Assembly (NCBI GenBank): GCA_039000515.1
Contig: JBCFYV010000001.1
Coordinates: 64,208,621 to 64,272,620, forward strand
DNA: 64,000 bases
Direction: 5' to 3'
From: Timema cristinae
Taxonomy: Eukaryota; Arthropoda; Insecta; Phasmatodea; Timematidae
The notes beneath the pieces were generated by a model. The model did not search any database and had not been told where the DNA came from. It saw only the letters and a list, made by a program, of their open reading frames with translations. Below are positions 11,621 to 46,632 of the stretch, piece by piece. The position numbers and the translations under genes are program-made. Within the stretch, counting starts at the first letter, position 1, and each line of letters begins with the position of its first letter.

Positions 11621-13437
11621 CTAGCATTTTTCAATATATTTCTGTTGGGGAAAATTTACAAATCTTTGTTCCCTTTCGCTAGGGTAAGGGTTTCCCCTAC
11701 CCCTAGAGAACTGCCCTTGGTGTTGTCTCCTGTCTCCTCGGAAATCCGGGCTGCGATGAGCCTCTTCATGACCTCTACCTTGGAGCATGTCTGAAGGTGC
11801 TCTCCAATCCGGTCCTCGTCGCTGATTTTCCAGGCGTGGTTCAGTCCTTCTCCAAGAGTTCTGCTGCCATCCCCCATTTTTAAACTTCTGTGGGGTTGAC
11901 ATACTTATGTCCTCATTTGTGTGCTTGCGAGGAGGTGAACCTACAGACTCAAATTGGTTTCTCCTCCGGTCTTGCTCCAAGTATCCAAACGCTGTAGTCC
12001 CGCGCGAAATTCATCTAAAGAGCTGTAAGTTGCACCCACTAACATTTCCCGCAAACGTATCGGCAAGCTTTTGTGTAACCATACATATAAGCTCAGAGTC
12101 CGTGATGGATGAATCAAAATTGCGACTTCTGGAGTACATATCAGCTAAATAGCTTTCCAAAGTGCCACTATTCTCATGATACCGAGAAGCATGCAACTTG
12201 GCCCTCATCTGCCCCTGTATCTCCACAGACCAGAACATAGCCAGGAACTTGGTACTAAAATCTTCCCAACTTGATATGTTGTCTTTTCCCACTGACCCCC
12301 AAGGTACAGCATCGCCTGTCAGGGAACTGCCTCCTAACCTTACTTTGTCCTTATCTGACAGCCTATGCCCTTCAAATAACTCCTCAAGAGCTAGTAAGTG
12401 ACTGACCGGGTTTTGTCGGTTCCTCCTATTGAATCTGGGAAGTCTCTCCTCCAAAGACTTTACCCCCAAAATGGCCATTGTGGGTGTGCTAAGAAAGTTT
12501 GGGCCAGTAACATTTCCTAAACTTACCTCTTCAACCAAGCCCCTCATTTGGTCTTGAACTGACGCAACCACTTTGGTAGAGTCATCTAATTTTGACCTAG
12601 AACTTCTTGGACTAGAGTCAATTTCTGATTCCTTGCCATCACAGCCACCAAGGACTCCTCCTGTCTTGCATTCACCGTACCAGCCTCAATACTAAAGTTC
12701 CTTAGACCTTCCTCTAACAGTACCGTGTGTTGGTCGAGTTGTTTTGCTACGGAATGTTGTGTCGTTTCCAGTACTTGACTAACTCTTTCTAGCGAAACTA
12801 GTGAATCTTTCTTAACCGCTTCTATTTCTTGACTACAATGTTGGTTCACAAACGCGATTTGTCCCTCCAGGTCAGTTCTTGTGTTGGTAATCTCCACATG
12901 AATATCTTTCCTGATAGTGTCGGTTATTGAACTCATGCGACTCAAGATTTCACTTTTCATGGTTTCCTGACTGGCTGCGAAATCTTCTTTGATTTTAACC
13001 TGACTATCTGAAAGCCTTGATAGCTCTCCCCTAATTTCAGCTTGACTAGCTGTTAAAACGCCTCTCATTTCACTCATCCTGATAATTAATTGTTGTATTG
13101 CTGATATAACGTCTGGAGGTGAGGTAACAGGTGTGAAGTTGGTCGCGGGTGGTTCGGTATACACGCATATGACAACAGGTATTGTGGTTGGTTCAGTCTC
13201 TACACTTTGTGGCTGACCACCCGACCTCGTCTCTGCAAATTCTTCGCTTAACTCATGGAATTGGTCTACATCCCTAAATTCACTTAATTCTAAAGACATT
13301 GTTGTTGATGTGTGATTATCAACATCTTCCCTTAGAACTTGGCCTTCCGTTGTTGAAGCCTCACCTACAACCTCCATATTAGTGTTTGAAATCAGAGCTC
13401 TGGCCTTGCTTCTAGTAAAATAGCTTCCTCCGCTCAT
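11621..13437 (-). pseudogene. gag: Ty3/gypsy-like gag, frameshifted
   Basis: Three open blocks on - together form a gag-like polyprotein. Block 1 (13437-12586) starts MSGGSYFTRSKAR and is rich in heptad-like stretches (coiled coil, about residues 115-260). Block 2 (12571-12011) has the retrotransposon-gag core: LPRFNRRNRQNPVSHLLALE, then WEDFSTKFLAMFW and YHENSGTLESYLADMYSRSR. Block 3 (11980-11621) is an Arg/Gly-rich tail ending QRFVNFPQQKYIEKC. Frameshifts separate the blocks near 12640 and near 12000. No CCHC zinc knuckle is visible and no protease, RT or integrase follows before the sequence turns AT-rich below 11.6 kb. It is a truncated or deleted LTR retrotransposon, probably a nucleic-acid-packaging protein in its live form. 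Confidence 0.8.
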
Positions 13438-16377: not shown

Positions 16378-18741
16378 CTGTCCACTTTGCATTCTATTTA
16401 GAATATTTTATTGTTATGTTAGGCTTCCAAACAGTCTACTGGATGAAGGAAATGCTTAGTTTTGCATATAAAAATAAATTACAGGACTTTCTCTGTATAC
16501 TTGTGGGACATAGGTTTCCTGTCGGCTTCTGGATGTTCACATACAATATGGTTTGAATTCTCCCCTCTATAAATTCATAGATAATATATCTTCATTTTCA
16601 TCACTTGTTGTAAAATCACTAAGATCACTGTCTCCATTGTTTACTTACCATGGAAACGATCAAGGTGCTGTCAAAACAGTCTGGCAACGCCTAACATTGT
16701 TTACGTAGTGTTATGATGTAGTTCCGAGTTCACACACTATAATATACTTTTATTCCAGTTGCCTGCGGCCATCCGTAAAATATTCTGGAACTTACAGAAA
16801 AATATGAGTGTGGAATATTTCATTAATGACACGTGAAGTGTACTAGATCATGGTGGAATATGTTGTAAATTACACTTGAAGTGTACTAGTTCATGGCGGA
16901 ATATGTTGTAAATTACACTTGAAGTGTACTAGTTCATGGCAGAATGTTTCGTTAATGACACGTGAAGTGTACTAGATCATGGTGGAATATGTTGTAAATT
17001 ACACTTGAAGTGTACTAGTTCATGGCGGAATATGTTGTAAATTACACTTGAAGTGTACTAGTTCATGGCAGAATGTTTCGTTAATGACACGTGAAGTGTA
17101 CTAGATCATGGTGGAATATGTTGTAAATTACACTTGAAGTGTACTAGTTCATGGCGGAATATGTTGTAAATTACACTTGAAGTGTACTAGCTCATGGCAG
17201 AATGTTTCGTTAATGACACGTGAAGTGTACTAGTTCATGAGAGAATATGTTGTAAATTACACTTGAAGTGTACTAGTTCATGGCGGAATATGTTGTAAAT
17301 GACACATGAAGTGTACTAGTTCATGGCGGAATGTTTCGTTAATGACACGTGAAGTGTACTAGTTCATGGTGGAATATGTTGTAAATTACACTTGAAGTGT
17401 ACTAGTTCATGGCAGAATGTTTCGTTAATGACACGTGAAGTGTACTAGATCATGGTGGAATATGTTGTAAATTACACTTGAAGTGTACTAGTTCATGGCG
17501 GAATATGTTGTAAATTACACTTGAAGTGTACTAGTTCATGGCGGAATATGTTGTAAATTACACTTGAAGTGTACTAGTTCATGGCGGAATATGTTGTAAA
17601 TTACACTTGAAGTGTACTAGTTCATGGCAGAATGTTTCGTTAATGACACGTGAAGTGTACTAGTTCATGAGAGAATATGTTGTAAATTACACTTGAAGTG
17701 TACTAGTTCATGGCGGAATATGTTGTAAATGACACATGAAGTGTACTAGTTCATGGCGGAATGTTTCGTTAATGACACGTGAAGTGTACTAGTTCATGGC
17801 GGAATATGTTGTAAATTACACTTGAAGTGTACTAGTTCATGGCGGAATATGTTGTAAATTACACTTGAAGTGTACTAGTTCATGGCAGAATGTTTCGTTA
17901 ATGACACATGAAGTGTACTAGTTCATGGCGGAATGTTTCGTTAATGACACTTGAAGTGTACTAGTTCATGGCAGAATGTTTCGTTAATGACACGTGAAGT
18001 GTACTAGATCATGGTGGAATATGTTGTAAATTACACTTGAAGTGTACTAGTTCATGGCGGAATATGTTGTAAATTACACTTGAAGTGTACTAGTTCATGG
18101 CGGAATATGTTGTAAATTACACTTGAAGTGTACTAGTTCATGGCAGAATGTTTCGTTAATGACACGTGAAGTGTACTAGTTCATGGCGGAATATGTTGTA
18201 AATTACACTTGAAGTGTACTAGTTCATGGCGGAATATGTTGTAAATTACACTTGAAGTGTACTAGTTCATGGCAGAATGTTTCGTTAATGACACGTGAAG
18301 TGTACTAGTTCATGAGAGAATATGTTGTAAATTACACTTGAAGTGTACTAGTTCATGGCGGAATATGTTGTAAATGACACATGAAGTGTACTAGTTCATG
18401 GCGGAATGTTTCGTTAATGACACGTGAAGTGTACTAGTTCATGGTGGAATATGTTGTAAATTACACTTGAAGTGTACTAGTTCATGGCAGAATGTTTCGT
18501 TAATGACACGTGAAGTGTACTAGTTCATGGTGGAATATGTTGTAAATTACACTTGAAGTGTACTAGTTCATGGCAGAATATGTTGTAAATTACACTTGAA
18601 GTGTACTAGTTCATGGCGGAATATGTTGTAAATTACACTTGAAGTGTACTAGTTCATGGCAGAATGTTTCGTTAATGACACGTGAAGTGTACTAGTTCAT
18701 GGCGGAATATGTTTTAAATTACACTTGAAGCAAATTTTGAA
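16378..18741 (-). mobile_element. piggyBac-like satellite-bearing element, copy 1 (truncated)
   Basis: This interval matches, inverted, the element at 32620-35688. It comprises about 450 bp of unique sequence (16378-16829) followed by the 43-bp array and a short end segment. Homology stops at about 16378 and at 18741, before either terminal repeat, so this copy lacks the TIRs visible in copy 2. A TTAA lies at 16310-16313 and others at 18834 and 18842. It interrupts the hAT 1 transposase. Confidence 0.7.
16830..18729 (+). repeat. 43-bp minisatellite inside piggyBac-like copy 1
   Basis: About 44 copies of a 43-bp unit in two main subtypes. One contains TACACTTGAAGTGTA, a 15-bp palindrome with a central G. 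The other has GACACGTGAAGTGTA and GTTTCGTTAATGAC. From about 16850 to 17230 three successive 129-bp trimers show a higher-order pattern. The array is clean, without the small deletions seen in copy 2. Confidence 0.95.
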
Positions 18742-22495: not shown

Positions 22496-22612
22496 TCATC
22501 GATGAAGTACCAATTGCTCTATGGTTTCTTGCTGTTCGTGTTCACACTTCATCAAAGATTGATATTGTACTCTAAGCCTTTCCAATTCCATAGACTTTTC
22601 AATCATCAACGC
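22496..22612 (-). CDS. IFT20: IFT20, last exon
   Basis: IFT20 is the small coiled-coil subunit of IFT complex B that also links the Golgi to ciliary membrane trafficking. Following a TTTCAG acceptor (22618-22613), the exon opens in phase 0 as ALMIEKSMELERLRVQYQ, continues SLMKCEHEQQETIEQ and ends LVLHR-TGA. It has 38 codons plus stop, the same length as the tail of the vertebrate protein, and the ELERLRVQY block matches the family's QLERYRVEY. The heptad pattern indicates the C-terminal coiled coil. It joins in phase to the exon at 31685-31839. The frame is intact. The poly(A) site was not identified with confidence. Confidence 0.92.
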   Translation of the reverse strand, partial: ALMIEKSMELERLRVQYQSLMKCEHEQQETIEQLVLHR

Positions 22613-22629
22613 CTGAAACAGGAATCAAA

Positions 22630-23590
22630 CATTCAAGTAGCTGTTAGACAAGGTTGTGTTAAGTCTCCATGTTTGTTTTAGGTGTATGAGGAGTGTGTGT
22701 GAAGACGCAGTTGGTGTACTAATGGACAATGTAAATGTGAGAGTGCTGCTATATCCATAAGATGCCTATTAATGGCTGAGAGCGGAAGTAACTTGCAGAA
22801 TGCTTTAAATCGTGAGTGTGGCAACAAAGAGAATGGATTTTCATAAAAATGTCTCTAAAACCATGGTAATGGTTTGTGATAAGGACAGATCGGGAAATGA
22901 TTGTCAACTTAGTATAAATGGTGAACTGTTAGAACAAGTGAATGATTTTATGTATCTGAGCAGAATTTTCCTTAAAAACTGAAAGATAGATGGTAAAATC
23001 AACAGACAGGTGAGTGATTGCATCTTGAAGAGTAGTTGTATTTATGTGAACTATTCCAAATAATGAAGTAGTATCAAGAGACAAAGATGGCAGTAAATAA
23101 AAGTGTGCTCACACCAACATTGTCTGATGGATGTGAAGTGTGAGTTTGTCAGAAGAAACACAAGAGCAAGGTGAATGTTGGTTGGAATGAGATATCTAAG
23201 AAATGTTTATGGAAAAACTTGTCAGGACAGAGATAGCAATGAATGGGTGCTAAAGGAGTGCGGTTTGAAAGGGAATCCAAATTGAATAGGTCAATGTGAA
23301 AGAAGCGTGTTACAGTGGTTTGTGAATGTTGAGCGTATGAGTGTGGATCGAGTGATGGAGCAAATATATGAAGGTAGAGTGTGTGTGTGGATCAAAAGGA
23401 AGAGGTAAGACTTGGTTAGATGAATGTGTGAAAAAGACAAACATTAAGAGTTTTAAGAATAAAAGAGCATGTGTGACTCGGTGTATGGATGTTGTTGAAG
23501 CGAAGGGAATTTCCAAGGATAGGGAAGTGTGGAGAAAGTTAGTGAGGAATGGATTAAGTCCATGGTTGATGTTTTTTTTAGCTATATGCA
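22630..23590 (+). mobile_element. Decayed LINE, RT and C-terminal region
   Basis: The plus strand shows broken LINE text in order: VRQGCVKSPCLF (about 22645-22680, the QGxxxSPxLF block of RT), SKTMVMVCDKDRSG and LSINGELLEQVNDFMYL (about 22855-22960). Weaker C-terminal blocks follow up to EGRVCVWIKRK and an EAKGISKDREVWRKLVRNGL segment (23498-23560). The catalytic YADD box is lost. It lies antisense in the IFT20 intron. Confidence 0.75.
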
Positions 23591-23604
23591 CAGTTTCTTG
23601 AGAT

Positions 23605-23775
23605 TATATTTATAGGTATACCCGCATTTACATGGAGGGCGAATATAAAACCATTTTGGAAAAACCACCCTCAGTACACTCGATCGAGATTCGAACCTCG
23701 ATATCCCTGTCATCAGCAGTCTAGTCTACTGCGAGAGTAGCACCTTAGACCATGCAGCCATCAAAGCAGGTAAGA
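23605..23775 (-). mobile_element. tRNA-derived SINE, family 3
   Basis: On - the A box region is TGGCTGCATGGTCTAAGGTG (23741-23760) and the B box is GGTTCGAATC (23688-23697). The body GGGTGGTTTTTCC..AATGGTTTT and CCTCCATGTAAATGCGGGT is shared with the SINE at 35981. The 3' end with the AGTAAGAC tail is missing here. Confidence 0.75.
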
Positions 23776-24500
23776 ATATATTTCAGGGGTTGTCCTGAAA
23801 TTATGAGATATAAATTATAATAAGGAGTTTTGTATTGTCCTGCTGCTACCCGCTTTCTCAGTCATTGAAGTTAGTGCAGAATCATGACTAAAATTGTATG
23901 TTAAAATCTTTTGAAGTGGAGCATAGCCCTTAAAGGAAAGTCAAATGAACCATTGATAGTAAATGTTTTATTAATTTATAAAATGTGGGTTAGATGTCCT
24001 GGAAGAATTATGTTGCATTTCACAAAATATGAAGCACAGGATGGTCAAAGAAGGTGATCGCATAGCTTTGCAAGCCCTCTATTACAATCTGGATCTAGTT
24101 AAAGTAAAAATAAAGAGAGATAAAGTGTCTGATAGCTAAATTGATGAAAAAAGATTAAAGATGGTTATCTTATTACAAAAATATAATTCAGAAAAATTAT
24201 GTATTTAAATTGCAAAATAAAAACGTAGGGTCATAATTTTAATGCATATGGCCAAACTTGTAAAAGGGCAGGGTATTTTGTAATCAAATCCTTTATATAG
24301 AACTTGCAGCTGTAGTAAAGAGGATTAATTGGTGAAGTCAGCTCTACCATTATGTAGCTTCACAAAAAAAAACAGCAATAGCAAGCTTTAAACCAATCAC
24401 AACATCTGCAATACCCGCCCATAAAACTTGGAATAACTTCAGCTATACTTTTTCTGTGTAAAATCAGCTTAGGACATACAACCAACTCAACCAGTGTACA

Positions 24501-27500
24501 TGAGTCTACATCGTGAGATACTAGCAGACACCTACATCTAGAGGTGTGTGTGCATGAGTCTACATCGTGAGATACTAGCAGACTGCTACATCTAGAGGTG
24601 TGTGTGCATGAGTCTACATCGTGAGATACTAGCAGACTGCTACATCTAGAGGTGTGTGTGCATGAGTTACATCGTGAGATACTAGCAGACCTACATCTAG
24701 AGTGTGTGTGTGTGTCATGAGTCTACATCGTGAGATACTAGCAGACTGCTACATCTAGAGGTGGTGTGTGTGCATGAGTCTACATCGTGAGATACTAGCA
24801 GACTGCTACATCTAGAGGTGTGTGTGCATGAGTCTACATCGTGAGATACTAGCAGACTGCTACATCTAGAGGTGTGTGTGCATGAGTCTACATCGTGAGA
24901 TACTAGCAGACTGCTACATCTAGAGGTGTGTGTGTGACATGAGTCTACATCGTGAGATACTAGCAGACTGCTACATCTAGAGGTGTGTGTGCATGAGTCT
25001 ACATCGTGAGATACTAGCAGACTGCTACATCTAGAGGTGTGTGTGTGCATGAGTCTACATCGTGAGATACTAGCAGACTGCTACAGCTAGAGGTGTGTGT
25101 GCATGAGTCTACAAAGTGAGATACTAGCAGACAGCTACATCTAGAGGTGTGTGTGCATGAGTCTACATCGTGAGATACTAGCAGACACCTACATCTAGAG
25201 GTGTGTGTGCATGAGTCTACATCGTGAGATACTAGCAGACTGCTACATCTAGAGGTGTGTGTGCATGAGTCTACATCGTGAGATACTAGCAGACACTACA
25301 TCTAGAGGTGTGTGTGCATGAGTCTACATCGTGAGATACTAGCAGACACTACATCTAGAGGTGTGTGTGCATGAGTCTACATCGTGAGATACTAGCAGAC
25401 TGCTACATCTAGAGGTGTGTGTGCATGAGTCTACATCGTGAGATACTAGCAGACTGCTACATCTAGAGGTGTGTGTGCATGAGTCTACATCGTGAGATAC
25501 TAGCAGACACTACATCTAGAGGTGTGTGTGCATGAGTCTACATCGTGAGATACTAGCAGACACTACATCTAGAGGTGTGTGTGCATGAGTCTACATCGTG
25601 AGATACTAGCAGACACTGCTACATCTAGAGGTGTGTGTGCATGAGTCTACATCGTGAGATACTAGCAGACTGCTACATCTAGAGGTGTGTGTGCATGAGT
25701 CTACATCGTGAGATACTAGCAGACTAGCTACATCTAGAGGTGTGTGTGCATGAGTCTACATCGTGAGATACTAGCAGACTGCTACATCTAGAGGTGTGTG
25801 TGCATGAGTCTACATCGTGAGATACTAGCAGACTGCTACATCTAGAGGTGTGTGTGCATGAGTCTACATCGTGAGATACTAGCAGACTGCTACATCTAGA
25901 GGTGTTGTGTGCATGAGTCTACATCGTGAGATACTAGCAGACTGCTACATCTAGAGGTGTGTGTGCATGAGTCTACATCGTGAGATACTAGCAGACAGCT
26001 ACATCTAGAGGTGTGTGTGCATGAGTCTACATCGTGAGATACTAGCAGACACTACATCTAGAGGTGTGTGTGCATGAGTCTACATCGTGAGATACTAGCA
26101 GACAGCTACATCTAGAGGTGTGTGTGCATGAGTCTACATCGTGAGATACTAGCAGACTGCTACATCTAGAGTGTGTGTGTGCATGAGTCTACATCGTGAG
26201 ATACTAGCAGACTGCTACATCTAGAGGTGTGTGTGCATGAGTCTACATCGTGAGATACTAGCAGACAGCTACATCTAGAGGTGTGTGTGCATGAGTCTAC
26301 ATCGTGAGATACTAGCAGACAGCTACATCTAGAGGTGTGTGTGCATGAGTCTACATCGTGAGATACTAGCAGACCTACATCTAGAGGTGTGTGTGCATGA
26401 GTCTACATCGTGAGATACTAGCAGACTGCTACATCTAGAGGTGTGTGTGCATGAGTCTACATCGTGAGATACTAGCAGACAGCTACATCTAGAGGTGTGT
26501 GTGCATGAGTCTACATCGTGAGATACTAGCAGACGCTACATCTAGAGGTGTGTGTGCATGAGTCTACATCGTGAGATACTAGCAGACACTACATCTAGAG
26601 GTGTGTGTGCATGAGTCTACATCGTGAGATACTAGCAGACTGCTACATCTAGAGGTGTGTGTGCATGAGTCTACATCGTGAGATACTAGCAGACTGCTAC
26701 ATCTAGAGGTGTGTGTGCATGAGTCTACATCGTGAGATACTAGCAGACTGCTACATCTAGAGGTGTGTGTGTGCATGAGTCTACATCGTGAGATACTAGC
26801 AGACTGCTACATCTAGAGGTGTGTGTGCATGAGTCTACATCGTGAGATTACTAGCAGACACCTACATCTAGAGGTGTGTGTGTGCATGAGTCTACATCGT
26901 GAGATACTAGCAGACACCTACATCTAGATGGTGTGTGTGCATGAGTCTACATCGTGATGATACTAGCAGACTGCTACATCTAGAGGTGTGTGTGCATGAG
27001 TCTACATCGTGAGATACTAGCAGACTGCTACATCTAGAGTGTGGTGTGGTGCATGAGTCTACATCGTGAGATACTAGCAGACACCTACATCTAGAGGTGT
27101 GTGTGCATGAGTCTACATCGTGAGATACTAGCAGACTGCTACATCTAGAGGTGTGTGTGCATGAGTCTACATCGTGAGATACTAGCAGACTGCTACATCT
27201 AGAGGTGTGTGTGCATGAGTCTACATCGTGAGATACTAGCAGACTGCTACATCTAGAGGTGTGTGTGCATGAGTCTACATCGTGAGATACTAGCAGACGC
27301 TACATCTAGAGGTGTGTGTGTGCATGAGTCTACATCGTGAGATACTAGCAGACTGCTACATCTAGAGGTGTGTGTTGCATGAGTCTACATCGTGAGATAC
27401 TAGCAGACGCTACATCTACGTAGGTGTGTGTGTGCATGAGTCTACATCGTGAGATACTAGCAGACTGCTACATCTAGAGGTGTGTGTGCATGAGTCTACA

Positions 27501-29418
27501 TCGTGAGATACTAGCAGACTGCTACATCTAGAGGTGTGTGTGCATGAGTCTACATCGTGAGATACTAGCAGACTGCTACATCTAGAGGTGTGTGTGCATG
27601 AGTCTACATCGTGAGATACTAGCAGACTGCTACATCTAGAGTGTGTGTGTTGTGCATGAGTCTACATCGTGAGATACTAGCAGACTGCTACATCTAGAGG
27701 TGTGTGTGCATGAGTCTACATCGTGAGATACTAGCAGACTGCTACATCTAGAGGTGTGTGTGTGCATGAGTCTACATCGTGAGATACTAGCAGACTGCTA
27801 CATCTAGAGGTGTGTGTGTGCATGAGTCTACATCGTGAGATACTAGCAGACTGCTACATCTAGAGGTGTGTGTGCATGAGTCTACATCGTGAGATACTAG
27901 CAGACTGCTACATCTAATTGTGTGTGTGTGTGCATGAGTCTACATCGTGAGATACTAGCAGACTGCTACATCTAGAGGTGTGTGTGTGTGCATGAGTCTA
28001 CATCGTGAGATACTAGCAGACAGCTACATCTAGAGGTGTGTGTGCATGAGTCTACATCGTGAGATACTAAGAGTGGCTGCTACATTCTAGAGGATGGTGT
28101 GTGTGCATGAGTCTACATCGTGAGATACTAGCAGACTGCTACATCTAGAGGTGTGTGTGCATGAGTCTACATCGTGAGATACTAGCAGACTGCTACATCT
28201 AGAGGTGTGTGTACATGAGTCTACATCGTGAGATACTAGCAGACTGCTACATCTAGAGGTGTGTGTGCATGAGTCTACATCGTGAGATACTAGCAGACTG
28301 CTACATCTAGAGGTGTGTGTGCATGAGTCTACATCGTGAGATACTAGCAGACTGCTACATCTAGAGGTGTGTGTGTGTGTGTGCATGAGTCAACATCGTG
28401 AGATACTAGCAGACTGCTACATCTAGAGGTGTGTGTGCATGAGTCTACATCGTGAGATACTAGCAGACTGCTACATCTAGAGGTGTGTGTGCATTAGTCT
28501 ACATCGTGAGATACTAGCAGACTGCTACATCTAGAGTGTGTGGTGTGTGTGCATGAGTCTACATCGTGAGATACTAGCAGACTGCTACATCTAGAGGTTT
28601 TGTGTGCATGAGTCTACATCGTGAGATACTAGCAGACTGCTACATCTAGAGGTGTGTGTGCATGAGTCTACATCGTGAGATACTAGCAGACACCTACATC
28701 TAGAGGTGTGTGTGCATGAGTCTACATCGTGAGATACTAGCAGACTGCTACATCTAGAGGTGTGTGTGCATGAGTCTACATCGTGAGATACTAGCAGACT
28801 GCTACATCTAGAGGTGTGTGTGTGCATGAGTCTACAGCGTGAGATACTAGCAGACAGCTACATCTAGAGGTGTGGTGTGTGCATGAGTCTACATCGTGAG
28901 ATACTAGCAGACACTACATCTAGAGGTGTGTGTGTGTGCATGAGTCTACATCGTGAGATACTAGCAGACACCTACATCTAGAGGTGTGTGTGCATGAGTC
29001 TACATCGTGAGATACTAGCAGACTGCTACATCTAGAGGTGTGTGTGCATGAGTCTACATCGTGAGATACTAGCAGACACCTACATCTAGAGGTGTGTGTG
29101 TGTGTGCATGAGTCTACATCGTGAGATACTAGCAGACACCTACATCTAGAGGTGTGTGTGGCATGAGTCTACATCGTGAGATACTAGCAGACTGCTACAT
29201 CTAGAGTGTGTGTTGTGTGCATGAGTCTACATCGTGAGATACTAGCAGACACCTACATCTAGAGGTGTGTGTGCATGAGTCTACATCGTGAGATACTAGC
29301 AGACACCTACATCTAGAGGTGTGTGTGCATGAGTCTACATCGTGAGATACTAGCAGACTGCTACATCTAGAGGTGTGTGTGTGCATGAGTCTACATCGTG
29401 AGATACTAGCAGACACCT
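24501..29418. repeat. 54-bp minisatellite in the IFT20 intron
   Basis: About 92 copies of a 54-bp unit containing GAGTCTACATCGTGAGATAC, TAGCAGACTGCTACATCTAG and a GTGTGTGTG stretch. The GT run varies in length and the AGACTGCTAC junction has recurrent short variants (AGACACCTAC, AGACACTAC, AGACAGCTAC), so the array has mixed-length units. Because 54 is a multiple of three, - strand frames stay open as an 18-residue repeat (HTSRCSSLLVSHDVDSCT). These are not genes. Confidence 0.97.
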
Positions 29419-29619
29419 AAAGTAGACCCGAATATTGAGTATGATCCCTGTATCTATACAGCAGAAGTGTTTTGATTCTAGGTAATTTTATTTGTAAATT
29501 TAGTATTATTAAATTTGTCACCCTTTGTCCAAAGAATTACACCCTTACTGGCGCAAGTATACCACACAATGTGTGAATATGTACAAGCAGTATGATAAAC
29601 TTTCAATATGATGATTTAT

Positions 29620-31733
29620 AAAATGAAACAAGATTAGACCAGTACAAACCTGGCACTGTTGCTGCTCAGCTTCTCTTTGTTTGGTCACACACTTTATAGA
29701 ATGAAACAAGATTAGACCGGTACAAACCTGGCACTGATGCTGCTCAGCTTCTCTTTGTTTGGTCACACACTTTATAGAATGAAACAAGATTAGACCGGTA
29801 CAAACCTGGCACTGTTGCTGCTCAGCTTCTCTTTGTTTGGTCACACACTTTATAGAATGAAACAAGATTAGACCGGTACAAACCTGGCACTGTTGCTGCT
29901 CAGCTTCTCTTTGTTTGGTCACACACTTTATAGAATGAAACAAGATTAGACCAGTACAAACCTGGCACTGTTGCTGCTCAGCTTCTCTTTGTTTGGTCAC
30001 ACACTTTATAGAATGAAACAAGATTAGACCAGTACAAACCTGGCACTGTTGCTGCTCAACTTCTCTTTGTTTGGTCACACACTTTATAGAATGAAACAAG
30101 ATTAGACCGGTACAAACCTGGCACTGTTGCTGCTCAGCTTCTCTTTGTTTGGTCACACACTTTATAGAATGAAACAAGATTAGACCAGTACAAACCTGGC
30201 ACTGTTGCTGCTCAGCTTCTCTTTGTTTGGTCACACACTTTATAGAATGAAACAAGATTAGACCGGTACAAACCTGGCACTGTTGCTGCTCAGCTTCTCT
30301 TTGTTTGGTCACACACTTTATAGAATGAAACAAGATTAGACCGGTACAAACCTGGCACTGTTGCTGCTCAGCTTCTCTTTGTTTGGTCACACACTTTATA
30401 GAATGAAACAAGATTAGACCAGTACAAACCTGGCACTGTTGCTGCTCAGCTTCTCTTTGTTTGGTCACACACTTTATAGAATGAAACAAGATTAGACCAG
30501 TACAAACCTGGCACTGTTGCTGCTCAGCTTCTCTTTGTTTGGTCACACACTTTATAAAATGAAACAAGATTAGACCGGTACAAACCTGGCACTGTTGCTG
30601 CTCAGCTTATCTTTGTTTGGTCACACACTTTATAGAATGAAACAAGATTAGACCAGTACAAACCTGGCACTGATGCTGCTCAGCTTATCTTTGTTTGGTC
30701 ACACACTTTATAGAATGAAACAAGATTAGACCGGTACAAACCTGGCACTGTTGCTGCTCAGCTTCTCTTTGTTTGGTCACACACTTTATAGAATGAAACA
30801 AGGGAAACAAGATTAGACCGGTACAAACCTGGCACTGATGCTGCTCAACTTCTCTTTGTTTGGTCACACACTTTATAGAATGAAACAAGATTAGACCGGT
30901 ACAAACCTGGCACTGTTGCTGCTCAGCTTCTCTTTGTTTGGTCACACACTTTATAGAATGAAACAAGATTAGACCGTACAAACCTGGCACTGTTGCTGCT
31001 CAGCTTCTCTTTGTTTGGTCTCACACTTTATAGAATGAAACAAGATTAGACCAGTACAAACCTGGCACTGTTGCTGCTCAGCTTCTCTTTGTTTGGTCAC
31101 ACACTTTATAGAATGAAACAAGATTAGACCGGTACAAACCTGGCACTTTGCTGCTCAGCTTCTCTTTGTTTGGTCACACACTTTATAAAATGAAACAAGA
31201 TTAGACCAGTACAAACCTGGCACTGTTGCTGCTCAGCTTCTCTTTGTTTGGTCACACACTTTATAGAATGAAACAAGATTAGACCAGTACAAACCTGGCA
31301 CTGATGCTGCTCAGCTTATCTTTGTTTGGTCACACACTTTATAGAATGAAACAAGATTAGACCAGTACAAACCTGGCACTGTTGCTGCTCAGCTTCTCTT
31401 TGTTTGGTCACACACTTTATAGAATGAAACAAGATTAGACCAGTACAAACCTGGCACTGATGCTGCTCAGCTTCTCTTTGTTTGGTCACACACTTTATAA
31501 AATGAAACAAGATTAGACCGGTACAAACCTGGCACTGTTGCTGCTCAGCTTCTCTTTGTTTGGTCACACACTTTATAGAATGAAACAAGATTAGACCGGT
31601 ACAAACCTGGCACTGTTGCTGCTCAGCTTCTCTTTGTTTGGTCACACACTTTATAGAATGAAACAAGATTAGACCAGTACAAACCTGGCACTGTTGCTGC
31701 TCAGCTTCTCTTTGTTTGGTCACAGACTTTAGA
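29620..31733 (-). repeat. IFT20: 78-bp minisatellite built from the IFT20 exon-intron junction
   Basis: About 27 tandem copies. On - each unit contains TGACCAAACAAAGAGAAGC, TGAGCAGCAACAGTGCCAG and GTTTGTACTGGTCTAATC: the last ~49 nt of the IFT20 exon, its 5' splice site, and the first ~29 nt of the intron. The first unit is the real exon end, contiguous with the rest. Junctions fall at TCTA(T)AAAGT, where exon and intron text share a short similarity. Units are 26 codons long and most are open in the IFT20 frame. Some units differ by A/C variants (CAGTGCCAG kept throughout), and one has a 12-bp insertion near 30805. Confidence 0.95.
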
Positions 31734-31839
31734 AGATTACGAACACCGATGGCCTTTATCTTCTCTTTTTCCACTTCTTTAGCCAGGTTGTCGACAGTGT
31801 GGATAAAACCATCTGCGATTCTTTGAAATTCAGTTATTT
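31685..31839 (-). CDS. IFT20: IFT20, internal exon
   Basis: After a pyrimidine-rich acceptor ending TTTTTAG the exon reads [34 protein letters not shown] and [17 protein letters not shown], then meets the CAG|GTTTGT donor. This matches the IFT20 core (vertebrate proteins have AIGARNLLKS and AKQREAQQQQLQ at this place). The first two bases (AA) complete a codon begun in the previous exon. That earlier exon, encoding the N-terminal DPE.TQQT-type segment, was not found between 31840 and the end of the window. The gene may have another very long intron, or its start may lie outside. Confidence 0.93.
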
Positions 31840-32615: not shown

Positions 32616-35600
32616 TTAACCCTTCCCGTGCCATTTACGGAATATTCCGTCAATCAAAATTTGCTTCATGTGTCATTTACAATATATTCCTCCATGATCT
32701 AGTACACTTCACGTGTAATTAACGAAACATTCTCTAATGAACTAGTACACTTCACGTGTCATTAACGAAACATTCTGCCATGAACTAGTACACTTCAAGT
32801 GTAATTTAAAACATATTCCGCCATGAACTAGTACACTTCAAGTGTAATTTAAAACATATTCCGCCATGAACTAGTACACTTCACGTGTCATTAACGAAAC
32901 ATTCTCTCATGAACTAGTACACTTCAAGTGTAATTTACAACATATTCCGCCATGAACTAGTACACTTCAAGTGTAATTTACAACATATTCCGCCATGAAC
33001 TAGTACACTTCAAGTGTAATTTACAACATATTCCGCCATGAACTAGTACACTTCACGTGTCATTAACGAAACATTCTCTCATGAACTAGTACACTTCAAG
33101 TGTAATTTACAACATATTCCGCCATGAACTAGTACACTTCACGTGTCATTAACGAAACATTCTGCCATGAACTAGTACACTTCATGTGTCATTTACAACA
33201 TATTCCACATGAACTAGTACACTTCAAGTGTAATTTACAACATATTCCGCCATGAACTAGTACACTTCAGTGTCATTTAACAACATATCTCTCAAGATAC
33301 TAGTACACTTCACATGTAATTTACAACATATTCGCCATGAACTAGTACACTTCAAGTGTAATTTACAACATATTCACCATGAACTAGTACACTTCAGTGT
33401 CATTAACGAAACATTCTCCATGAACTAGTACACTTCAAGTGTAATTTACAACATATTCCCCATGAACTAGTACACTTCAAGTGTCATTTACAACATATTC
33501 CGCCATGACTAGTACACTTCAAGTGTCATTACAACATATTCCACCATGATCTAGTACACTTCAATGTAATTTACAACATATTCCGCCATGAACTAGTACA
33601 CTTCAAGTGTCATTTACAACATATTCCGCCATGAACTAGTACACTTCAAGTGTCATTAACGAAACATTCTCCATGAACTAGTACACTTCAAGTGTAATTT
33701 ACAACATATTCCGCCATGAACTAGTACACTTCAATGTAATTTACAACATATTCTGCCATGAACTAGTACACTTCAAGTGTCATTTACAACATATTCCACC
33801 ATGAACTAGTACACTTCAAGTGTCATTTAAACATATTCCACATGATCTAGTACACTCAATGTAATTTACACATTCCGCCATGAACTAGTACACTTCAAAT
33901 GTAATTTACAACATATTCCGCCATGAACTAGTACACTTCAGTGTCATTAACAAACATTTCCGCATGAACTAGTACACTTCAAGTGTAATTACAACATTCC
34001 GCCATGAACTAGTACACTTCAATGTAATTTACAACATATTCCGCCATGAACTAGTACACTTCAGTGTCATTACAAACATTCTCACATGAACTAGTACACT
34101 TCAAGTGTAATTTACAACATATTCTGCCATGAACTAGTACACTTCAAGTGTATTTACAACATTTCCGCCATGATCTAGTACACTTCAAGTGTATTTACAA
34201 CATATTCCACCATGAACTAGTACACTTCAAATGTATTACAACATATTCCCCATGAACTAGTACACTTCAAGTGTCATTTACAACATTTCCACATGATACT
34301 AGTACACTTAAAGTGTCAATTTACAACATATTCTGCCATGAACTAGTACACTTCAAGTGTAATTTACAACATATTCCACCATGAATCTAGTACACTTCAC
34401 ATGTAATTTACAACATATTCCCCATGATTAGTACACTTCACGTGTCATTATACAACACATTCCGCCATGATCTAGTACACTTAAAGTGTCATTAACGAAA
34501 CATTCTCTCCATGAACTAGTACACTTCACGTGTATTACAAACATTTCCGCCATGAACTAGTACACTTCAAGTGTAATTTACAACATATTCCGCCATGAAC
34601 TAGTACACTTCAAGTGTAATTTACAACATATTCCACCATGATCTAGTACACTTCACATGTAATTTACAACATATTCCCATAAATCTAGTACACTTCACGT
34701 GTCATTAACGAAACATTCTCTCATGAACTAGTACACTTCACGTGTCATTAAACATATTCTGCCATGAACTAGTACACTTCAATGTAATTTACAACATATT
34801 CCGCCATGAACTAGTACACTTCAAGTGTCATTTACAACATATTCCACCATGATCTAGTACACTTCACATGTAATTACAACAATTCCGCCATGAACTAGTA
34901 CACTTCAAGTGTAATTTACAACATATTCCGCCATGAACTAGTACACTTCAAGTGTCATTTACAACATATTCCGCCATGATCTAGTACACTTCACGTGTCA
35001 TTAATGAAATATTCCACACTCATATTTTTCTGTAAGTTCCAGAATATTTTGCGGATGGCCGCAGGCAACTGGAATAAAAGTATATTATAGTGTGTGAACT
35101 CGGAACTACATCATATCACTACGTAAACATTGTTAGGCGTTGCCAGACTGTTTTGACAGCACCTTGATCGTTTCCATGGTAAGTAAACAATGGAGACAGT
35201 GATCTTAGTGATTTTACAACAAGTGATGAAAATGAAGATATATTATCTATGAATTTATAGAGGGGGAGAATTCAAACCATATTGTATGTGAACATCCAGA
35301 AGCCGACAGGAAACCTATGTCCCACAAGTATACAGAGAAAGTCCTGTAATTTATTTTTATAAACATGCAAAGCTAAGCATTTCCTTCATCCAGTAGACTG
35401 TTTGGAAGCCTAACATAAAATAAAATATTCTAAATAGAATGCAAAGTGGACAGAGTGTATATTGACTTTGTTTAGAATTGTATGTTCATGTCAGATGACC
35501 AAAAGAACGGAACTCTGGAACTTCTTGAGGCAAACCATGGTGACATAATGATTGAAAAATATAAAATGTTTGTTTTTTCACTTCCACATAAGTAAAGTAA

Positions 35601-44354: not shown

Positions 44355-45040
44355 TTATTTCCCGTATTTCATTGCGTTGAAGAACCTAATGGCATGTGCA
44401 CTACCACTGGTTGATAAGTGAGATTGCTCATGTGGTCCAAATGTCGCATAATTTGTAGGACGATAGTTGTAGTAAGCTGTGTGAGTGTGATGTGTGGAGG
44501 CCTCAGAATGTTGTTGATACATCCCTGCCATATGTGCCTGGCATTGTAGGTTGTGTGCTTGTCTAACATTTCTAATCAATTTTAATACTTCCATTCTAAA
44601 ATAAAGCTTTTCATCTGTGTCTAATGATCTCAAAGAAGGTAATAAAGATTCGAAGAATGCTCTATCATCTTTATCAGGATCATCCTTCTGACGTTCCTTG
44701 TGAAGGGTCATGAATTGTGAAAGTTGGAATTCCAGCTCACTGGTATTATTCTTAACCGGCCTCTTTCGGTTGCTCTGAGTTGGCTTTGTTCTTTCTGTCA
44801 ATTGGTTAGGTCCAAGATCTGTTTGTGATTCAACTTCGTCTTCAGCCGATTGTCCTTCAGCGTCTTCCATAGAACTTGCAGAAGTAGTTCGAGCTACATC
44901 GATTTTTGATAGAAATGATAACTGATCAGCGTATGTGTATTTGAATTTTTTGCTTGCACCAGAACCAGATTTCAATGAATTTCTCTTGCATTTCAAGTAG
45001 TGATCTTTTCCATTTTTACATTTCGATATTAGTTTATTAC
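44355..45040 (-). CDS. Harbinger MADF/BESS protein, exon 2
   Basis: The accessory protein of Harbinger elements binds the transposon ends and helps carry the transposase into the nucleus (family knowledge). After a TTGTTGCAG acceptor the exon reads GKDHYLKCKRN, the end of the MADF domain, then LKSGSGASKKFKYTYADQLS, a conserved linker. A low-complexity acidic stretch follows, then a BESS motif DRAFFESLLPSLRSLDTDEK with LYFRMEVLKLIRNV, and a Tyr/His-rich tail to a stop at 44355. The exon is uninterrupted, unlike the transposase. Its first exon lies at 47479-47661. Confidence 0.82.
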
Positions 45041-45104
45041 CTGCAACAAAAATTTCTAACAATAATAAACATGGATTAAATAGTAAAGCTGTTATATTTT
45101 GTTA

Positions 45105-45799: not shown

Positions 45800-46632
45800 G
45801 TTGGTGCAGTTGGGTGCTACATGGTCGAACTTCACTATACATATAGAATTGGAAGGACAACAGCAGGTGTAATAATAAAAAATGTGTGCAATGATTGAAA
45901 GACCAGTGTTTTCCTACGCCATCGGAAGACAAATAGAAAGCAATAGCAGCAGACTTCCAGGAACAAGCTCAGTTCCCAAACTGTTTAGGTGAACATGTCC
46001 GTGTTGTGAAACCAAAAATGAGCGGTTCATTATATAATAATTACAAGAATTATTTCTCAATTGTTCTCCTAGCAGTTGTGGACTCGGACTATCGCTTCTT
46101 GTATGTTGACATTGGATCTTTCAGCAAAGAATCGGATGCAACAATATTTAAGAAATCTTCATTGTGGGAAAATCTTTCAAACATTAAGTTAAACATCCCA
46201 CAACCAATGCCTTTACCTCATAATGAACAAGTAATAAGACCTTATGCCTTTATAGGTGATGAGGCCTTCGGTTTAGCCGAACATGTTCAAAGGCCATTCG
46301 CCGGCAAAATGTTAACAAAAAAAAAGTGTTTATAATTATAGGCATTGCAGAGGAAGAAGATACATTGAATGTGCGTTTGGCATACTGACCAATACATTTC
46401 TAATATTTCACAGACCATTAAATGTAAATGTGCAAAAGGCGGTTGATATAACAAAAGCTTGCTGTACACTGCACAACTTTATCCGTGAAAGGGATGGATT
46501 TAGACTAGAAGACACATTAGCTTCTGATACTTTGGAAAGTATAGATGAAAGGGACACAAGAGAGAAACATACCCTGGCGGTTATTTCTTAAGTGAAGCTG
46601 GTAAACTACCTTGGCAAGACAGCAAGATTTGA
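45800..46632 (+). pseudogene. Harbinger transposase, exon 2 (DDE domain, first Asp deleted)
   Basis: Blocks in order: ELHYTYRIGRTTAGVIIKNV (frame 2), QFPNCLG-EHVRVVKP, MSGSLYNNYKNYFSIVLLAV, VDSDYRFLYVDIGSFSKESD, AFIGDEAFGLAEHVQRPF, NYRHCRGRRYIECAFGILTN and KACCTLHNFIRERDG, ending in another frame with YFLSEAGKLPWQDSKI. Intact relatives read G-(A/S)-I-D-G-K-H at the FPNCLG-EHV junction, so about four residues including the first catalytic aspartate are missing. The second Asp (GDEAF) and the Glu (IECAFG) remain. Frameshifts occur near 45890, at an A run near 46318, and near 46560. The transposase is dead even if the homopolymer shifts are sequencing errors. Confidence 0.88.

Follow-up and report, generated by a model that had tools for sequence, protein, structure and literature searches.

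A tandem array of 27 identical 5′ splice sites built from an exon-intron junction of the IFT20 gene in a Timema stick insect

What becomes of a conserved gene when the 5′ splice site of one of its coding exons is repeated again and again at the end of that exon, and how might such an array have arisen? The question is posed by IFT20 in the stick insect Timema cristinae, where exon 2 runs directly into a minisatellite whose every unit carries the exon's own donor. The gene lies in a 64,000-nucleotide stretch of DNA (bases 64208621–64272620 of a contig 74 Mb long, from an assembly totalling 1.29 Gb), referred to here as the window. As argued below, the array most likely represents an accident of the genome that has been tolerated.

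The locus is an intact IFT20 gene. A 131-residue frame is unbroken across three exons (Table 1) and differs at 4 positions from the IFT20 protein of T. poppense (P0002); a pseudogene reading is not supported, the complete frame being intact. When exon 2 and the last coding exon are joined (31839–31685 and 22612–22496), the resulting 89-residue piece matches the Pfam IFT20 family (PF14931) at 110.5 bits (E 7.4e-32), with the cut-off for that family at 27 bits. Compared with Timema proteins, it agrees at 99% with T. californicum (P0001) and at 98% with T. poppense (P0002), among 107 matches. The two introns are 33,197 nt (exon 1 to exon 2) and 9,072 nt (exon 2 to the last exon) in length. In one search of one genome, which skipped very common words and scored only the best candidates, the DNA of exon 2 and the array found a single matching place in the 1.29-Gb assembly. 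Within the window, no ncRNA families at Rfam gathering scores and no tRNA or tmRNA genes were reported.

Table 1. Features of the IFT20 locus and the donor array (window positions; a slash marks an exon-intron boundary)
Feature	Position	Strand	Details
IFT20 coding exon 1	65160-65037 in window terms (L002:1037-1160)	minus	donor A/GTGAGT; beyond the window edge by 1.0 kb
IFT20 coding exon 2, 155 nt	31839-31685	minus	acceptor TTTTTAG/AAATAACTG, authentic end CCAG/GTTTGT
Authentic donor CAG/GTTTGT	31679-31687	minus	first intron base 31684
Donor array, 27 units (24 of 78 nt, two of 77, one of 87)	29621-31733	minus	unit 1 31733-31656, last unit 29698-29621
Stretch open in the IFT20 frame after the authentic donor	31319-31684	minus	first intron bases of extra donors 31606, 31528, 31450, 31372
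In-frame TAA, array unit 6	31316-31318	minus	would terminate every product spliced from donors 6-27
Donor-like site CCA/GTAAGG just past the array	29543-29551	minus	first intron base 29548; apparent exit of the T. monikensis model
Intron after exon 2 when spliced from donor 1, 9,072 nt	22613-31684	minus	a 54-bp minisatellite lies here as well as the donor array
IFT20 last coding exon	22496-22612	minus	ALMIEKSMELERL...LVLHR, stop TGA

The array is made of the gene's own DNA. Each unit consists of 49 nt of exon end followed by 29 nt of intron start, carries 16 codons of the conserved IFT20 domain, and in the case of unit 1 is the real end of exon 2. Tandem Repeats Finder (TRF) describes a 78-bp unit in 27.1 copies with 96% matches at 29615–31731, and the minus strand of the window contains CAGGTTTGT at 27 places, every one inside the array, against 0 on the plus strand. 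The donor CAG/GTTTGT is present in 27/27 units, and exactly 26 extra donors follow the authentic one. The first intron bases of all 27 run from 31684 to 29649, spaced 78 nt apart save for two intervals of 77 and a single one of 87. None of the intervals is twice the usual length, so a unit with an altered donor has not been overlooked. A preliminary description of the locus had claimed that the minisatellite was derived from the IFT20 junction rather than foreign, with the first unit the real exon end and about 26 extra donors behind it, and the make-up of the units and the count of donors confirm this. Insertion of a foreign satellite into IFT20 was considered and rejected, since the unit is the exon end with its adjoining intron, in DNA for which the genome search described above gave a single match.

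Among the array copies there is no sign of constraint. The units vary at 12 consensus columns, and 0/9 donor columns vary across the 27 units; with only 12 variable columns, a donor free of changes is expected by chance with P = 0.20, and the invariant donor was therefore rejected as a sign of selection. Coding constraint on the extra units was also rejected because TAA is found in three of them (units 6, 14 and 15), a Q-to-H change in five, and two 1-nt deletions have occurred; an A-to-V change in two units and one 9-nt insertion complete the variation recorded. Units 2–27 have a mean identity of 97%, and neighbouring units are no closer in sequence than distant ones. Just past the unit junction all 26 later units have a G where unit 1 has a C, which argues that all of them descend from one altered copy. 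This C-to-G change gives rise to a donor-like AAA/GTGTGT, scoring 2.0 bits, at 25 places. The first of these lies at 31649, out of frame and 35 nt past the authentic donor, followed by 24 further places.

The breakpoints in the exon (TCTAAAGTC) and in the intron (TTATAAATC / TATAAATC) have TAAA in common, and the unit junction within the array reads CTATAAAGTG. This shared TAAA suggests that one tandem duplication, later amplified, would explain the array. A 78-bp tandem duplication at the 4-bp microhomology would have copied 49 nt of exon end, the donor, and 29 nt of intron, after which slippage or unequal exchange would have grown the array to 27 units; we infer that duplication and expansion took place in this order. 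The expansion would have been set in a Timema lineage whose DNA here abounds in minisatellites. The neighbourhood is prone to minisatellite growth, with tandem repeats taking up 25,202 of the 64,000 bases of the window (39%; union of TRF rows). In the 100 kb that adjoin the window upstream, of which 12.8% is N, they make up 27.6%.

Several of these neighbouring repeats deserve description in their own right. A second minisatellite with a 54-bp unit in about 90 copies (24494–29414) lies in the same intron, about 200 bp past the downstream end of the donor array. Two 43-bp minisatellites (16825–18730 and 32664–35002) are mutually inverted, are 90–91% identical over 1.9 kb, and flank IFT20 coding exons 2 and 3; a single type of mobile element may have carried both. 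Elsewhere in the window, an open reading frame with a BESS motif on the minus strand adjoins a DDE_Tnp_4 transposase piece on the plus strand (44358–45101 and 45937–46332), a combination like that of Harbinger-type transposons.

The consequences of splicing from each donor can be predicted by arithmetic on the sequence. Donors 2, 3, 4, and 5 would add 26, 52, 78, and 104 residues in frame, which agrees with the preliminary description, as does the TAA at 31318–31316, where the IFT20 frame had been said to stay open until about 31316. Splicing from donors 6–27 (22/27) would place a stop 21–1666 nt ahead of the junction, and in 21 of these by at least 99 nt. A stop more than roughly 55 nt before a junction usually triggers nonsense-mediated decay. 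The predicted length of exon 2 is 155, 233, 311, 389, or 467 nt for the first five donors, rising to 2190 nt for the last. The donor itself is weak, with a pairing energy to U1 of -8.9 kcal/mol (consensus -14.0) and two positions unpaired, and a position-matrix score of 1.6 bits versus 8.6 for the consensus, GT not counted; this weakness makes some leakage plausible. Intron gain by tandem duplication of an AG/GT segment would call for a unit that provides, besides a donor, an acceptor with a pyrimidine tract; acceptor-like AGs within the present unit are headed by AATCTTGTTTCATTCTATAAAG, with 65% pyrimidine, while the remainder have 25–40%. Recursive splicing, or an array of mini-exons each consisting of a 42-nt in-frame piece from AAAG to the donor, was considered; the acceptor looks weak, and the intervening intron would be 36 nt, which is under the usual minimum intron length.

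It is probable that the array, once formed by duplication and amplification, has been tolerated, with the authentic donor dominant and the extra donors rarely used. With an intron of 33.2 kb before it and one of 9.1 kb after it, exon 2 would be recognised across the exon, such that the donor nearest the upstream acceptor, namely the authentic one that closes a 155-nt exon, would beat identical copies further in. The extra donors would be seldom used, with donors 2–5 inserting 26–104 residues into the coiled coil and donors 6–27 leading to the TAA. It is because the exon is flanked by long introns, and is expected to be exon-defined, that the array would be tolerated. A study of human genes supports such a preference: in exons with long introns and donors of near-equal strength the upstream donor was favoured, and minigenes that carried a pair of identical strong donors used the upstream one exclusively (Carranza, Shenasa, and Hertel, 2022; PMC9225289). 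The same study reports that with weak identical donors the larger constructs or exons were skipped while smaller ones kept the upstream preference, and that without a filter on strength the downstream donors were taken in about 60% of events (PMC9225289). This exon-centric proximity rule was measured in human genes, and the host here is an insect. The weakness of the donor counts against exclusive use of donor 1, as do the gene models P0108 and P0095 of related species, described below, which run past it. Donor 1 would be dominant rather than exclusive, leakage would amount to rare use of the other donors, and the array would be nearly neutral; these points, like every step at the level of RNA, we infer from the DNA.

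Comparison with other Timema species bears on both the age and the use of the array. T. cristinae is the sexual sister species of T. monikensis (PMC6404633). The T. monikensis gene model P0108 is identical at 63/63 residues to the exon and intron start seen here, and reads from exon through donor and intron-coded residues directly into NHHIESLSY, which is the flank that follows the array in the window; the frame of the flank after the array differs from that of P0108. The locus of P0108 appears to consist of one unit without an array, giving 27 units here versus one in the T. monikensis gene model, although a collapse in assembly could yield one unit and would give the same protein. P0108 leaves the exon after its single unit, apparently at the CCA/GTAAGG site that here lies just past the array, and adds the intron-coded residues in frame. 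Both ends of P0108 match elsewhere in the window, at 12176–12302 (opposite strand) and 19174–19106, making these ends doubtful as IFT20 sequence. In T. genevievae, the model P0095 runs past donor 1 into a different intron start (QFQVSIIKEAV). A further protein model, P0102, also reads past the donor, into other sequence. The proteins of T. poppense (P0002) and T. californicum (P0001) have the sequence expected from use of the authentic donor. The N-terminus of P0001 matches three dispersed places (E < 1e-3) in the 100 kb upstream, including L002:4133–4225, and the start of that model therefore looks repeat-derived. The protein models of four Timema species hold no spliced second unit, and among 139 fetched proteins (one search scored the best 7991 candidates) none has a second copy of KQREA, while the intron-coded TGLIL is found in P0108 alone. 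Gene models are poor evidence either way on donor use; if P0108 and P0095 were built from RNA, related species sometimes pass over donor 1.

Splice donors within a minisatellite have a human precedent. In the gene 6-16/IFI6 (G1P3), Turri, Cuin, and Porter are said to have found in 1995 that a minisatellite provides multiple splice donors. The unit of this human minisatellite is 12 bp. The likeness extends to an array whose first unit is the true end of the exon and to downstream donors that can lengthen the product in frame, here donors 2–5, with 6–27 reaching a stop. The difference is that the unit is short in IFI6 and 78 bp here, in another gene and another phylum, and that more than one donor is reported to be used there, whereas the extra donors here are candidates. 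Tandem repeats at human exon-intron boundaries form a second precedent: De Grassi and Ciccarelli (2009; PMC2812944) describe 27 intron modifications by such repeats in duplicated genes. As in Timema, these are boundary repeats, there altering splicing, and units of 62–126 bp occur among the coding intron modifications; in contrast, the outcome described there was novel introns in recent paralogs, while the Timema array has a single genomic match, 27 donors, and a unit in which no AG looks like a good acceptor. The system of Carranza, Shenasa, and Hertel resembles the present one in having equal 5′ splice sites on one exon with long introns, for which it predicts use of the upstream site, and differs in having two engineered or annotated human sites rather than 27 natural copies (PMC9225289). 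The remark in the preliminary description, made without a search, that its author knew of no such described case is superseded by IFI6 and by the human boundary repeats. The kind of array is already described, and the present case joins it with a long unit, many copies, an insect host, and a conserved gene. Among the literature matches listed, none dealt with an array of splice donors in IFT20 or Timema, but most subscription papers lay outside the coverage and such absence is unproven.

Could the array nevertheless do something for the gene? In one reading, modelled on IFI6, the first few extra donors would be used appreciably to give graded IFT20 proteins with 26-residue inserts, in a mix that shifts with array length and unit order. 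It draws on the 27 identical donors, on a unit of 26 codons that keeps donors 2–5 in frame, and on the human case, where two of the downstream repeats are reported to act as donors, so that three mRNA species result (PMC4526556); exons of 233 and 311 nt from donors 2 and 3 are, in our judgement, not extreme. However, the insert is hydrophobic, contains glycine, and would be expected to break a conserved coiled coil, the fetched proteins described above offer no second unit, and the repeats are without coding constraint. Such graded use therefore seems unlikely. The tuning of isoforms suggested in the preliminary description likewise finds no support here, given the stops, deletions, and amino-acid changes carried by the copies, a donor invariance expected by chance at P = 0.20, and exon definition, which predicts the first donor. 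It is highly improbable that the array acts as a length-variable dial in wild populations, in which allele length would set how often the first of N donors is picked and with it the mix of normal, +26-residue, and stop-bearing IFT20 transcripts, and through that mix how sensory cilia form.

The array might alternatively lower the dosage of the gene, if use of donors 6–27, intron retention, or the occupation of many U1 sites left less productive IFT20 mRNA and so formed a length-dependent brake. The early stops predicted for 22/27 donors would favour this, and the weak donor may make splicing of the exon inefficient; yet among identical donors the upstream one wins under exon definition in the published test (PMC9225289), and the far donors require exons of 545–2190 nt. 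A brake of this sort is very unlikely. The array could also owe part of its length to an assembly artefact, or the single unit of T. monikensis could be a collapse, in which case the array may be common to both species. Arrays of near-identical units are easily mis-sized, and for T. monikensis the evidence consists of a single gene model, both ends of which match other places in the window. Against this, the units differ at 12 columns, and within a 74-Mb contig the array is bordered by the IFT20 exon and, at its far end, by non-array sequence; furthermore, the join of intron and flank in P0108 has the form that the breakpoints predict for the ancestral state, though collapse to one unit would give the same protein. 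An assembly error of either kind is quite unlikely.

On present evidence, the array reveals no new mechanism. It does provide a natural construct of 27 identical 5′ splice sites set at near-fixed 78-nt steps behind one acceptor, in a conserved gene and in a genus with several sequenced species. Counts of the junctions leaving each donor would measure directly, in an insect, how sharply splicing favours the donor closest to the upstream acceptor, which has been addressed for human genes with engineered minigenes (PMC9225289). More generally, the locus shows that growth of a minisatellite over a coding splice junction need not disrupt the gene's reading frame.
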